A DNA stretch of 64,000 nucleotides, from contig JAPLKI010000020.1 of NCBI GenBank assembly GCA_026388155.1, positions 1 through 64,000 on the forward strand, in the 5' to 3' direction. Made by a program: the position numbers and the translations under genes. Shown piece after piece: positions 8,009 through 37,185 of this stretch. The notes beneath the pieces are model-generated. The model searched no databases. It saw nothing but the letters and a program-made list of their open reading frames with translations, and was not told the origin of the DNA. Numbering within the stretch: the first letter of the stretch is position 1; every line of letters begins with the position of its first letter. This DNA is from Elusimicrobiota bacterium. GTDB lineage: Bacteria > Elusimicrobiota > Elusimicrobia > Elusimicrobiales > UBA9959.

Positions 8009-9814
8009 ATGAGCAAAAAAATAAAAAAATCAGCCGCTGTTGAACGGCGCCCGCCCTCTTTAACCGACAAGGTCGCCGGGCTTGCGGCGTCGCGAGGCTT
8101 TAACGCCTTTGTCTGCGTTTTAACCCTCGCGGCGCTCTATCTTATTCTGGCCAAGCCTCTGATAGACCTTGATATATGGTGGCATCTCAAAACCGGGCAG
8201 GTCATCTCGGAAACCGGCAAGGTTCCCGGCGTTGATATTTTTTCCTACGTGATATCCGGCAAACCCTGGGTGACCTTTGAATGGCTTTCGCAGCTGATCT
8301 TTTACAAATGCTGGCAGCTAGGAGCGGAAAAAGGGATATATCTCCTGCGGCAGGCCCTGGCGGCGGTAACTTTCGGCCTGCTGCTTGCGCGCGGCTTCCC
8401 GGCGGCGATGGTTGCGTCGGCTGTTATCTTTTTCGGCCTGACGTTCATGGGCGGCTCCGTCCTTGAGCGACCGCAGATGTTCACCTATTTATTCGCCCTG
8501 GGCTGCCGGCTTCTGGCGCCGCAGATAATCAACGCCCGGCCCGGCGCAACACTGTGCGCGGCGGCTCTTATAGCCGTTCATATTTTGTGGGCCAACATGC
8601 ACGGCGGAGCGAGCGCGGTCGGAATTCTGATAATCTCCTGTTACGCCGCCGTGGCCGCCGCGCGGGGCGACAGACCGGCGTTCAAAAGAAGCGCGTGGCT
8701 TTTGGGCGCGGTCTTTTGCGCGACCCTGGTGAACATACACGGCATAAAGATATACACCCATCTTTTCCTGACCTGGTTTGACCCGGCCCAGCGCTGGGTG
8801 CTGGAATGGAAGCCTCTGACCTCGTCCTCGCCCGGATTCCTGCCGTACTGCCTGTACCTTCTTTTGCTGGGAGCCGCGAGCCTGCGCCTGGCCGGCGCCG
8901 AACGCGCCGCGGCCCTGTTTATAGGCGCGCTGTTCGGCGGTTTTTTCGGCTTTCGCAGCTCCCGCAACGTCGCGCTGGCTTTTTTCATCACCGCTCCGGA
9001 TGCTATCTCAGGCCTGAGGATTTATTTTTCCGAAAAAAGAAAATTATACGCGTTCATGGCGGTTCCCTTTTTTGTTTGCCTGTGCCTGAGCCCGCGGTTC
9101 ATGCCGGAAGAGCTTCGAGCCGGAAAGCTTTTCCCTGAGCCGCTCAGCCGGCAGTGGCTCTCCGGGGTATGTGATTTTATTTTGGCGCGCGATATACCGG
9201 GCCGGATGTACAACGACTATGTGGCGGGAGGCTATCTTATCTGGCGGCTGGGTCCGGCGCGGCAGATCTTTGTGGACGGCAGGAGCCTTGAATACGGCGC
9301 GACGCTTATGGAACGGCTGGCGCGCATCTCCGGCAAAGAAGGATTCGAGGACCTGGATCGGGAATTTAAATTTGACTATCTTGTCTTCCAGCAGAGAAAG
9401 GACGACCGGCTTTTATATCTGGATAAAGACCCGGATTGGCGCTGCGTTTATTTTGACGACGGCGGCCTTATCTACGCGCACCGCGCGAGAGCCGCCGCAA
9501 AGACAGCCGCCGGCTACGGCTACCGGTATTTGCGGCCGAATGAACAGAGCTTCGCCTACCTGCGGGAATACGCGGAGGACGCGCAAAAAGCCAAAGAGAC
9601 AATAAGGGAACTGGACCGGGCTATCGCGCAAACCCCGCCCTGGCTTTCCGCTAACGCCTGCCTGATGAAAAGCGCATTTTTACGAATGACAACAAATGAG
9701 ATAACCTGGGCCCGCTGGATAACGGGGGTGGGCGGGCGGTTCCGGTATCCTGAATGGCTCCGCCAGCTTGACGAAGCGAAGAATGTCCTGCAGGCGGATA
9801 CCCGGAATCCTTAA
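8009..9814 (+). CDS. Large polytopic membrane protein of unknown function (GT-C-like)
   Basis: A 601-residue protein. After a basic N-terminus there are about ten hydrophobic helices to roughly residue 370, then a soluble C-terminal part. The first periplasmic loop carries LIDLDIWWHLKTGQVI and FSYVISGKPWVTFEWLSQ, a pattern I associate with uncharacterised membrane proteins that resemble GT-C glycosyltransferases (acidic residue in loop 1, then a W-x-x-H motif). The soluble part includes YNDYVAGGYLIWRLGP and QIFVDGRSLEYG. No donor or acceptor can be named. It follows the OPT gene by 64 bases on the same strand and ends at a strong terminator. Confidence 0.6.
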   Translation: MSKKIKKSAAVERRPPSLTDKVAGLAASRGFNAFVCVLTLAALYLILAKPLIDLDIWWHLKTGQVISETGKVPGVDIFSYVISGKPWVTFEWLSQLIFYKCWQLGAEKGIYLLRQALAAVTFGLLLARGFPAAMVASAVIFFGLTFMGGSVLERPQMFTYLFALGCRLLAPQIINARPGATLCAAALIAVHILWANMHGGASAVGILIISCYAAVAAARGDRPAFKRSAWLLGAVFCATLVNIHGIKIYTHLFLTWFDPAQRWVLEWKPLTSSSPGFLPYCLYLLLLGAASLRLAGAERAAALFIGALFGGFFGFRSSRNVALAFFITAPDAISGLRIYFSEKRKLYAFMAVPFFVCLCLSPRFMPEELRAGKLFPEPLSRQWLSGVCDFILARDIPGRMYNDYVAGGYLIWRLGPARQIFVDGRSLEYGATLMERLARISGKEGFEDLDREFKFDYLVFQQRKDDRLLYLDKDPDWRCVYFDDGGLIYAHRARAAAKTAAGYGYRYLRPNEQSFAYLREYAEDAQKAKETIRELDRAIAQTPPWLSANACLMKSAFLRMTTNEITWARWITGVGGRFRYPEWLRQLDEAKNVLQADTRNP

Positions 9815-9834
9815 CTATACAAAAACAGTAAATT

Positions 9835-9863
9835 AAAACCCGGCCATATTCAGCCGGGTTTTT
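9835..9863 (+). terminator. Bidirectional intrinsic terminator, copy 1
   Basis: AAAACCCGGC, short loop, GCCGGGTTTTT followed by ATTATTTT. It ends the gene at 8009-9814. It lies in a 77-base segment (9814-9890) repeated at 10424-10500. Confidence 0.85.
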
Positions 9864-9892
9864 ATTATTTTAGAATCGTTTCGGCTATTTCC

Positions 9893-10421
9893 TGACTTCC
9901 GCAATGAGACACCCTGCTGTTTAAGCGCGATTTGTTTCAAACCTGGCGGGTGGGTGTTATATCGGGGGCAACGGCGGGCTCCCTGTCCGCTCCGAGACCG
10001 GATTTTCCGGGGAAGAAGCGCACGGTCTTGCGCCGGCTCCGGAACTCGGGCAAAAGGCAAAGCTTTTGCCCTCAGACATCCTCGCCGTTCCAGTGGAATT
10101 CGCTCCAGACCATGCGCTTAAATCCTAAATGGAGCGGACAGGGAGCCCGCCGCCGCCCAAGCGGTTGGTGTTAAATAAGTCGCAATTCACTATTTGGAGC
10201 GGGTGGCGGGGGAGCTGGGTTAGCAAAACCGTCCGGAGGCCGAGACTTGCATAGCGGCGAGGCCGAGGAACGGAAGGGCGGGCACGGTGTGTCCCGACCC
10301 TGGTTTTGCGTTCCAGTCCCCCGACAGGCCCCGCGAACCCTAACTTTTGGCTGCAAGGCACCTAAAACCTGGCGTGCTCTCGTCGTGAGAATCTTAGATT
10401 TTTGATGAGTTGCGGAAGTCA
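9893..10421. mobile_element. 529-bp non-coding element with 12-bp terminal inverted repeats
   Basis: Ends are perfect 12-base inverted repeats: TGACTTCCGCAA (9893-9904) and TTGCGGAAGTCA (10410-10421). Inside, 9972-9993 and 10131-10152 are a perfect 22-base inverted pair, and GCAAAACC (10223-10230) pairs with GGTTTTGC (10312-10319). Flanking DNA is a 77-base direct repeat containing a terminator. No protein frame is credible. It could be a MITE-type insertion or a structured RNA gene carried on one. Confidence 0.6.
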
Positions 10422-10444
10422 AGACTATACAAAACCACCAAATT

Positions 10445-10472
10445 AAAACCCGGCCATATTCAGCCGGGTTTT
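10445..10472 (-). terminator. Bidirectional intrinsic terminator, copy 2
   Basis: Same stem as copy 1 (AAAACCCGGC / GCCGGGTTTT). It lies just beyond the stop codon of the minus-strand hydrolase gene at 10495, read in the minus direction as a stem followed by a T-run. Confidence 0.8.
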
Positions 10473-10494
10473 CTTTATTTTAAAATAGTTTTGG

Positions 10495-11802
10495 TTATTT
10501 GATCAGCGAGAGAATAAGCTTCACCGATTCCGGGGCGTAGGCAATGGTCAGGTGGTTCTCGTTCACCACCATCACCTTTATCGGCTCTTTTCGGGCGGGA
10601 TGTATAAGGTCGTTGGTGTGGCTCGCGCTCTCAAGGAACACCAGGCCGTCGGACGGGCCGTCATTTTCGGTGACCGGGATATTGTCTATCTTGCTGTTAT
10701 TGCCGGCTATCAAAGCCACGGAGATATCGGGCGGCACCGGATAAGCCCTGAAGCCGTTTATAAAATTCCCGCCTTTCATTATGGCGTTGGATATGCCCAT
10801 GGAATGGCTTACAAAACCCTGGCCGCCCTGCATTGTGGTATAGGAATCCGGCTCCGAAAGGTTCACAGGGTATTTCCCGGTCCAGTCGTAGAGGACCTGC
10901 TGCTGCATCGGGAAGTTGTCGCTGTATATGCTGAACTCCAGCGTATCTTTCCACTGGCCGTAGTAAAGCATCTTGTCCCAGCTCATCGGCGCGTCCGCCG
11001 CCATATCGTCCTTAACGAAAAAATAATTAAATTGGGGATGCCGGAAGGCGAAATCCTGGCCGCGGTGCGGCGTGGCCAGAGTGATAAGCTGGTCAACGTC
11101 GCCCCTGTAGGCGGTCCAACTGCCGTTCAGGCGGTAACTGGAAACATAAGCCCTGGCCGCAAGCCCGCCGGCGCTATGGCCTATCAGTGTAACTTTACCC
11201 GCCCCTGTGGCCCGCCTGGCCATGTCTATCGCGTCGGCCAGGTACTGCGCCTCATAAAAGATATTTCCGTGTTTGTGCGGGAAGGTGACGGCGAAAACCC
11301 TGTAATCTTTTGCCTCGAGGGCCTGCATAAGGCCGGTTGTACCGGGGTTCCCCACCATCATTTCAGGAGCGGCCCAGGCGCGGGTGGCGTTGTCGGAAGC
11401 GCCGTGCGCCAGCACGATCACCTTACCCTTGTTGGTTTTCCATCTGGGTCCGTAATGAAGCAGGAAGGTACCCGAGGGCGGCAGGTTTGAACCGAACGCG
11501 GCCACTACCTCGGAGTTCTCGTGGCGCGACTTATTAAGCGCGCTCTCAATGGCAAAGGGACGGGCCGTATCCTGGTAGCACTCAATGCGCTCCCAGTATT
11601 TGGACTGCGCGGTGCGCACAAGGGATAAACCGGCGCCATACCTGGGTGTTGCCGGTTCCGGCACGGCGGCAACGGACTGAAGCGCCGCGGGGGCGGCTTC
11701 GGAAAGCTGGGCAAGAGGGCCGGGCTGTCCGGCTTCGGTTTTTGTGGTCATTAAAGCGGCTAAAAGAAATAAAAAGGGCGTGATCTTCACCATGGGCTCC
11801 AT
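10495..11802 (-). CDS. Secreted alpha/beta hydrolase, lipase/PGAP1-like
   Basis: About 435 residues from the ATG at 11802, chosen because it starts a good signal peptide (MEPMVKITPFLFLLAALM); the ATG at 11793 preceded by GGAG is also possible, and a longer frame to 11880 has no such signal. The core has KVIVLAHGASDN (oxyanion region), the nucleophile elbow GHSAGG, TLATPHRGQDF typical of lipases and PGAP1-like esterases, an acidic stretch NDGPSDGLVFLESAS and NENHLTIAY near the end, with candidate acid and His. It should hydrolyse an ester outside the cytoplasmic membrane. The stop codon falls inside the 77-base flanking repeat of the 529-bp element. Confidence 0.75.
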   Translation of the reverse strand: MEPMVKITPFLFLLAALMTTKTEAGQPGPLAQLSEAAPAALQSVAAVPEPATPRYGAGLSLVRTAQSKYWERIECYQDTARPFAIESALNKSRHENSEVVAAFGSNLPPSGTFLLHYGPRWKTNKGKVIVLAHGASDNATRAWAAPEMMVGNPGTTGLMQALEAKDYRVFAVTFPHKHGNIFYEAQYLADAIDMARRATGAGKVTLIGHSAGGLAARAYVSSYRLNGSWTAYRGDVDQLITLATPHRGQDFAFRHPQFNYFFVKDDMAADAPMSWDKMLYYGQWKDTLEFSIYSDNFPMQQQVLYDWTGKYPVNLSEPDSYTTMQGGQGFVSHSMGISNAIMKGGNFINGFRAYPVPPDISVALIAGNNSKIDNIPVTENDGPSDGLVFLESASHTNDLIHPARKEPIKVMVVNENHLTIAYAPESVKLILSLIK

Positions 11803-36966: not shown

Positions 36967-37185
36967 CCTTTTAAAAAGGGAGACGGCGGATTTTCTGCGC
37001 GCTCCTTTTGAGGGTTTACGGCCGGGGTCTGGAGCGAATCCCTCTCATTAGGGGCGGCGAGGACCGTTCAAGCCGGACCGCTGTGCGGGCCGGCGCGTTC
37101 CGGAGCCGGCGGAAGACCCCGGACATCTTCTTAGAAAACCCGGTCTTGGAGCGCGCAGAGAATTTGCCGGCTCCCTTATAAGGGA
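36967..37185. repeat. Long imperfect inverted repeat element (219 bp)
   Basis: The left arm (36967-37005) and the right arm (37148-37185) are imperfect reverse complements of about 38 bases, sharing CTGCGCGCTCC and an AAAGGGAG-type outer part. Inner segments GGCCGGGGTCT and AGACCCCGG can also pair. It lies immediately before the alpha-2-macroglobulin stop codon. It may be a non-autonomous element or a structured RNA. Confidence 0.6.

Follow-up and report, generated by a model that had tools for sequence, protein, structure and literature searches.

The 64,000-nucleotide stretch analyzed here (the window; contig JAPLKI010000020.1 of the Elusimicrobiota bacterium assembly GCA_026388155.1) carries a 533-bp structured element between two convergent genes. 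This element is very probably a non-autonomous member, resembling a miniature inverted-repeat transposable element (MITE), of an IS1634-family group of Elusimicrobiota, which would have been inserted with a 77-bp target duplication. For the 77-bp direct repeat flanking it, a long target duplication made by a transposon is the most plausible origin, because sister copies also carry long duplications, as reported for IS1549 and IS1634. The interior of the element holds two covarying structured repeats, modules A and B, which are not the cause of the flanking repeat.

Ends and flanking repeat of the element

The window lies on contig C20 of a 3.36-Mb genome in 25 contigs (G000), and the features of the locus are as follows.

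9891..10423, no strand: putative MITE-like element, 533 bp, non-autonomous IS1634-family derivative with 14-bp terminal inverted repeats (TIRs; 13/14), IS1634-like ends and a flanking duplication
9891..9904, plus: left TIR, CCTGACTTCCGCAA, corresponding to the 3' end of the insertion sequence (IS)
10410..10423, minus: right TIR
10353..10418, minus: right subterminal region, homologous to the IS 5' end (upstream of the transposase)
9814..9890, no strand: left copy of the 77-bp target duplication, an intergenic terminator region with a remnant of the last hydrolase codons at its end
10424..10500, no strand: right copy of the 77-bp target duplication, with the hydrolase stop codon inside
9970..10160, sense judged minus: module A, a structured dispersed repeat of about 190 bp inserted in the element (R2 model, 192 bits on minus, 43 on plus)
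10195..10338, plus: module B, a structured dispersed repeat of about 145 bp (R1 model, 162.9 bits)
8009..9814, plus: flanking gene, 601 aa, no Pfam family, its stop abutting the left duplication
10495..11784, minus: flanking convergent alpha/beta hydrolase gene (Pfam PGAP1 / Abhydrolase_6)

A sequence-only reading of the window had described a 529-bp element with perfect 12-bp inverted ends, a perfect internal 22-base inverted pair and a diverged 77-bp direct repeat that includes the hydrolase stop codon. All of these are present, with some refinement. The perfect ends are TGACTTCCGCAA (9893-9904) and TTGCGGAAGTCA (10410-10421), and adding two outer bases gives 14-bp ends with one mismatch (9891-9904 and 10410-10423), so that the 533-bp boundary 9891-10423 fits the repeat better than 9893-10421. 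The internal pair (9972-9993 and 10131-10152) extends to 28 nt at 93% identity (9966-9993 and 10131-10158), and both strands fold strongly relative to dinucleotide shuffles (z of -6.4 for plus and -9.6 for minus). The longest open reading frame (ORF) within the element in a mechanical ORF list is 83 aa, and no transposase ORF is among them.

The two 77-bp flank copies are 88% identical, with 0 nt between repeat and element on either side, and their pair score of 109 compares with at most 24 for the window left flank against the right flanks of other elements. The right copy contains the hydrolase stop codon, while the left one, which also holds a terminator-like hairpin, retains a stop remnant only (CTATTT, the reverse complement of AAATAG), as would be expected if the insertion duplicated one convergent intergenic region.

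To judge the origin of this repeat, we compared flanks across sister elements, setting each left flank against its own right flank and, as control, against the right flanks of the other 11 elements. TIR-like hits numbered 20 in the own genome, compared with 4 for a reversed control pattern, and 27 across relatives (8 of 41 genomes, the own included, overlapping with the own-genome 20); the 12 elements with both ends recognized, including that of the window, were retained, and single-ended, contig-edge and chance hits were excluded. Eight of the 12 have their own flanking direct repeat, of 77, 28, 21, 33, 72, 40, 125 and 36 bp, with scores of 32-230, while no cross-locus control exceeded 30. 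In seven of the eight, the repeat starts no more than 4 nt from the right end and finishes no more than 5 nt from the left end. Long, variable and locus-specific duplications thus appear usual for this element group. A TIR-independent scan of 33 own-genome module loci recovered the cases on C21 and C16 and added L063 (35 bp, 100%) and L078 (31 bp, 87%). Furthermore, the intergenic region is unduplicated at all 21 hydrolase loci of other metagenome-assembled genomes (MAGs; scores 15-25, window 107), and the 601-aa gene was found by tblastn in none of these 21 loci. The window element also does not stand alone, having 54 matches in its own genome and matches in 15 of 41 genomes, many of them partial copies.

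The sequence-only reading had considered 77 bp unusually long for a transposon and had allowed for recombination with a related site or an RNA-based element. As to the origin of the repeat, this doubt did not hold, given the duplications at 8 of the 12 elements; as to the cargo, an RNA-like character is borne out by the covariation of A and B described below. A tandem duplication or recombination between related terminator sites, with the element merely sitting at the junction, could account for copies that are 12% diverged and for a duplicated unit of exactly one intergenic region. However, recombination would give related sequences, while the flank repeats differ between loci and abut the element ends in seven of the eight cases; the 77-bp unit, moreover, has no further copy among the own-genome matches. 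We therefore regard this explanation as very unlikely. As for terminators as targets, terminator-like hairpins occur within 120 bp of 3 of the 12 elements, compared with 2.6% expected per element from 120-bp window tiles that are mostly coding; these cases are too few, with no intergenic control, and terminator targeting is not claimed.

Two further loci were recorded during the survey. At L063 (G000:C18:224400-226100), a B-bearing insertion has different outer ends (right end inward GGGTCTTCCGACTTTAGC) and perhaps represents another transposon subgroup; its perfect 35-bp flank repeat suggests a recent insertion. At G007:C111:579-651 (L118), the TIR CCGACTTCCGCAATGAGGCACC is present in three tandem 26-bp copies.

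Relationship to the IS1634 family and proposed origin

The ends of the window element are homologous to those adjoining IS1634-family transposases in relatives. Contig C26 of genome G010 possesses an open frame for an IS1634-family transposase (NF033559, 357 bits, cut-off 100; Pfam DDE_Tnp_1), which is directly followed by a TIR of the same type (IS 3' end inward CCTGACTTCCGATTTGGGACACCC; window left end CCTGACTTCCGCAATGAGACACCC). When the right subterminal 66 nt of the window element were compared without gaps to the 5' end of this IS, 36 of 66 positions were identical, and the maximum of 10000 shuffles was 30; the same comparison for L131 gave 31 of 66 with a shuffle maximum of 32, this pair running out of register and being alike by eye. 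In addition, an IS1634 gene on C25 of genome G001, from the same genus, is truncated (216 bits) and shares 62% identity with the transposase of G010; its IS aligns at the 5' end with the right end of a sister MITE located at C1:19041-19135 of the own genome (78%, E 1e-13). Matches to NF033559 were found in 11 of the 41 genomes, six of them above the cut-off.

According to the available text of a 2008 review of the IS4 superfamily (PMC2266710), the IS1634 TIR consensus is C-----YT, and IS1549 and IS1634 generate variable duplications of 8-514 bp. Judged by its ends and flanks, the window element behaves like this long-duplication subgroup.

Several observations weigh against this assignment. 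The own genome has no match to NF033559, and no complete IS1634 element with both ends exactly of the window type was found among the genomes; in G010, the copy is truncated within the 5' TIR, where the contig starts, and in G001 a contig end cuts the copy as well. Other IS1634-family members are stated in the available text of the review to make 5-6 bp duplications (PMC2266710), and a Geobacillus member, in the accessible part of its description, a 6-bp one (PMC8024623). Among the 12 two-ended elements, four have no flanking repeat (own C18:46384, G010 C15:149483, G010 C27:40211 and G011 C347:6879), and the repeat of the own C16 element begins 39 nt beyond the right end. The majority of the 33 own-genome module loci in the TIR-independent scan also show no flanking repeat. 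Finally, an orthologous site with both neighbor genes was not found among the relatives, G001 and G002 having no hydrolase.

The origin that we propose for the locus is as follows. The element would have been inserted between the two convergent genes by a DDE transposase of the IS1634 family that acted on both ends in trans, and widely spaced target cuts, or gap repair, would have duplicated the whole 77-bp intergenic terminator region, by which each gene may have kept a terminator. The flank copies would then have diverged by 12%, and the detectable IS1634 transposase would have been lost from the genome, so that the window copy looks like an old, orphaned relic. The interior would be cargo, composed of structured repeat B and of structured repeat A, which presumably landed later, just upstream of B. 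As to function, the outer element is most likely a selfish transposon surviving as a relic, and after its long duplication neither gene would have been without a terminator.

Modules A and B

The interior of the element is a mosaic, since own-genome matches to it break off at the module borders. Two sister elements, L060 (C14:33213) and L061 (C16:224263), run through the position of A without A: their GGGGGC is followed by GCGGTTG or GGTTG, while the window has GGGGGC, 191 bp and GCGGTTG. Given these A-less sisters, module A is best read as a nested later insertion at 9970-10160, with a border repeat of at most 2 bp. The B model gave at least 392 matches in 16 of 25 genomes of the host family (at least 78 in one genome) and none in 16 genomes of the sister family, and the A model matched in 11 of the 25 genomes searched, all among the 16 of the host family searched, its match counts including both strands of one copy. 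Both modules occur inside such elements and also without recognizable ends.

The window contains module A once more in full length, at 36981-37174 (sense plus, 188 bits). Contigs C12, C2, C13 and C18 of the own genome end inside A-bearing elements; the assembly thus breaks at some copies, and the copy numbers given are minimum values. Another Elusimicrobiota MAG has a B copy without TIRs (L040, 6285-6420, minus) between the orthologous hydrolase stop and its terminator, which is an independent insertion in the corresponding intergenic region. Smaller hairpins are nested in the B copies of L061, L073, L074, L078 and L087, of which that in L078 may have a 7-bp border repeat, and they might form a third family of modules, in which a GGA/GA-like loop was again seen by eye. 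Upstream of some A or B copies (e.g., L093 upstream of 737), the sense strand also shows two G-rich blocks (GGGYGGG) about 24-34 nt apart, with AT-rich sequence often following. This bipartite motif precedes 8 of 76 A or B copies, compared with 2 in the three other placements together, and could represent a leader, a promoter or a repeat of another kind.

The structures of both modules are supported by covariation. For B, the alignment of 47 of 58 copies, which leaves out large insertions, partial copies and the most divergent ones and can thereby flatter the pairing score, has 96.0% of cells paired over 37 pairs (shuffled 82.3, slid at most 48.8). Changes on both sides occur in 24 of these pairs, with a covariation of 0.406 (shuffled 0.158, slid at most 0.128); further pair types (48 vs 47.6 shuffled) are the sole measure not beyond the shuffles. 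For A, aligned as 29 sense-strand rows of 60, most copies having matched both strands, 96.8% of cells are paired over 64 pairs (shuffled 82.0, slid at most 53.1), with both-sided changes in 47 pairs and a covariation of 0.439 (shuffled 0.164). On the modelled strand, G-T exceeds A-C by 82:24 in A (minus) and by 37:14 in B (plus; 20:14 without one column), which hints that one strand of each may act as a single strand.

The two modules share a helix with a GGA/GA internal loop, in which 5'-TCC-GGA-GCC-3' faces 5'-GGC-GA-GGA-3'. The strand order is permuted: B has TCC-GGA-GCC, a hairpin and then GGC-GA-GGA, and A, in its sense, has the opposite order, so that the hairpin closes the GCC/GGC side in B and the TCC/GGA side in A. 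Covariants of the motif are also present. In A, TCGCAC goes with CGGTGA in 3 of 29 copies and is seen nowhere else, and in B, AGT replaces AGG in all eight copies (of 47) that have TTCGCGA or TTCACGA, and TCACGGA goes with AGT in one copy. That a two-stranded helix tolerates permutation suggests that the helix itself would be what is recognized. It is conceivable, if on balance doubtful, that A and B together form a single new mobile structured class with two branches, possibly transcribed RNAs, which hitch-hike in IS1634-type transposons of Elusimicrobiota and are recognized via this permuted motif.

Candidate promoters for sense transcripts gave no useful signal. Upstream TATAAT-like hexamers were found for 27 of 47 B copies (shuffled mean 19.9, antisense 22) and for 10 of 22 A copies (shuffled 8.7, antisense 12).

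Such RNA-like covarying structure is what would be expected if a retro- or RNA-based element, such as a group II intron derivative or a retron-like element, had made the long repeat, and group IIC introns sit near terminators. However, the window element has IS1634-type TIRs, the duplications are locus-specific on both sides, and the terminator-like hairpins mentioned above accompany only 3 of the 12 elements. A search of 9000-11500 against Rfam matched no family, its six hits all being below gathering scores, none of them near threshold, and these hits were taken as chance. We consider this origin extremely improbable.

Another explanation concerns the cargo and not the outer element, namely that a Y1 (RAYT) transposase moves A and B as REPIN-like hairpins, the IS1634-type ends being incidental to their spread. 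Dispersed intergenic structured repeats and four Y1_Tnp genes in the own genome would agree with it, and one 3-kb Y1_Tnp locus has a copy of B. However, with B at one of the four Y1 loci and A at none, the linkage is weak, and both modules are far larger and more branched than REPs, which makes mobilization by Y1 seem unlikely.

Significance and comparison with known systems

Within the IS1634 family, reports of long variable duplications concern two elements, and according to the 2008 review no mechanistic model for them had been put forward (PMC2266710). The Elusimicrobiota MITEs form a natural series for studying such duplication, with repeats of 21-125 bp, one of them at 97% identity. Since a complete terminator can fall within the duplicated stretch, an insertion of this kind can leave both neighboring genes terminated. 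If the modules are a real functional class, their several hundred heavily compensated copies would offer an unusually clear case for the question of RNA versus DNA hairpins in bacterial intergenic repeats. In the literature on IS1634/IS1549 duplications, MITEs and Elusimicrobia insertion sequences or noncoding RNA, no description of these repeats was found, judging by titles and the beginnings of abstracts.

Similar to IS1634 and IS1549, which are IS4-related DDE transposons, the window element has a TIR (CCTGACTT) that fits C-----YT, and its group shows long variable duplications, 21-125 bp over eight elements here, next to the range given in the available text of the review; homologous ends adjoin NF033559 transposases in relatives. 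Unlike those elements, it has no transposase gene and its interior is structured cargo, and most members of the family, as far as the available text states, duplicate 5-6 bp. Bacterial MITEs are likewise short, gene-less, TIR-bounded and dispersed, and would be mobilized in trans. However, the window element differs from them in its large branched structured modules, in its nested insertions and in the 21-125 bp flank duplications of its group.

The modules themselves resemble ERIC, BOX and REP-BIME repeats in being intergenic, dispersed and palindromic, with compensatory changes, and resemble BOX in forming modular mosaics. They differ from these repeats in sequence, in being larger and branched, in the shared permuted GGA/GA helix and, for B, in being found in one Elusimicrobiota family only among the 41 genomes searched.

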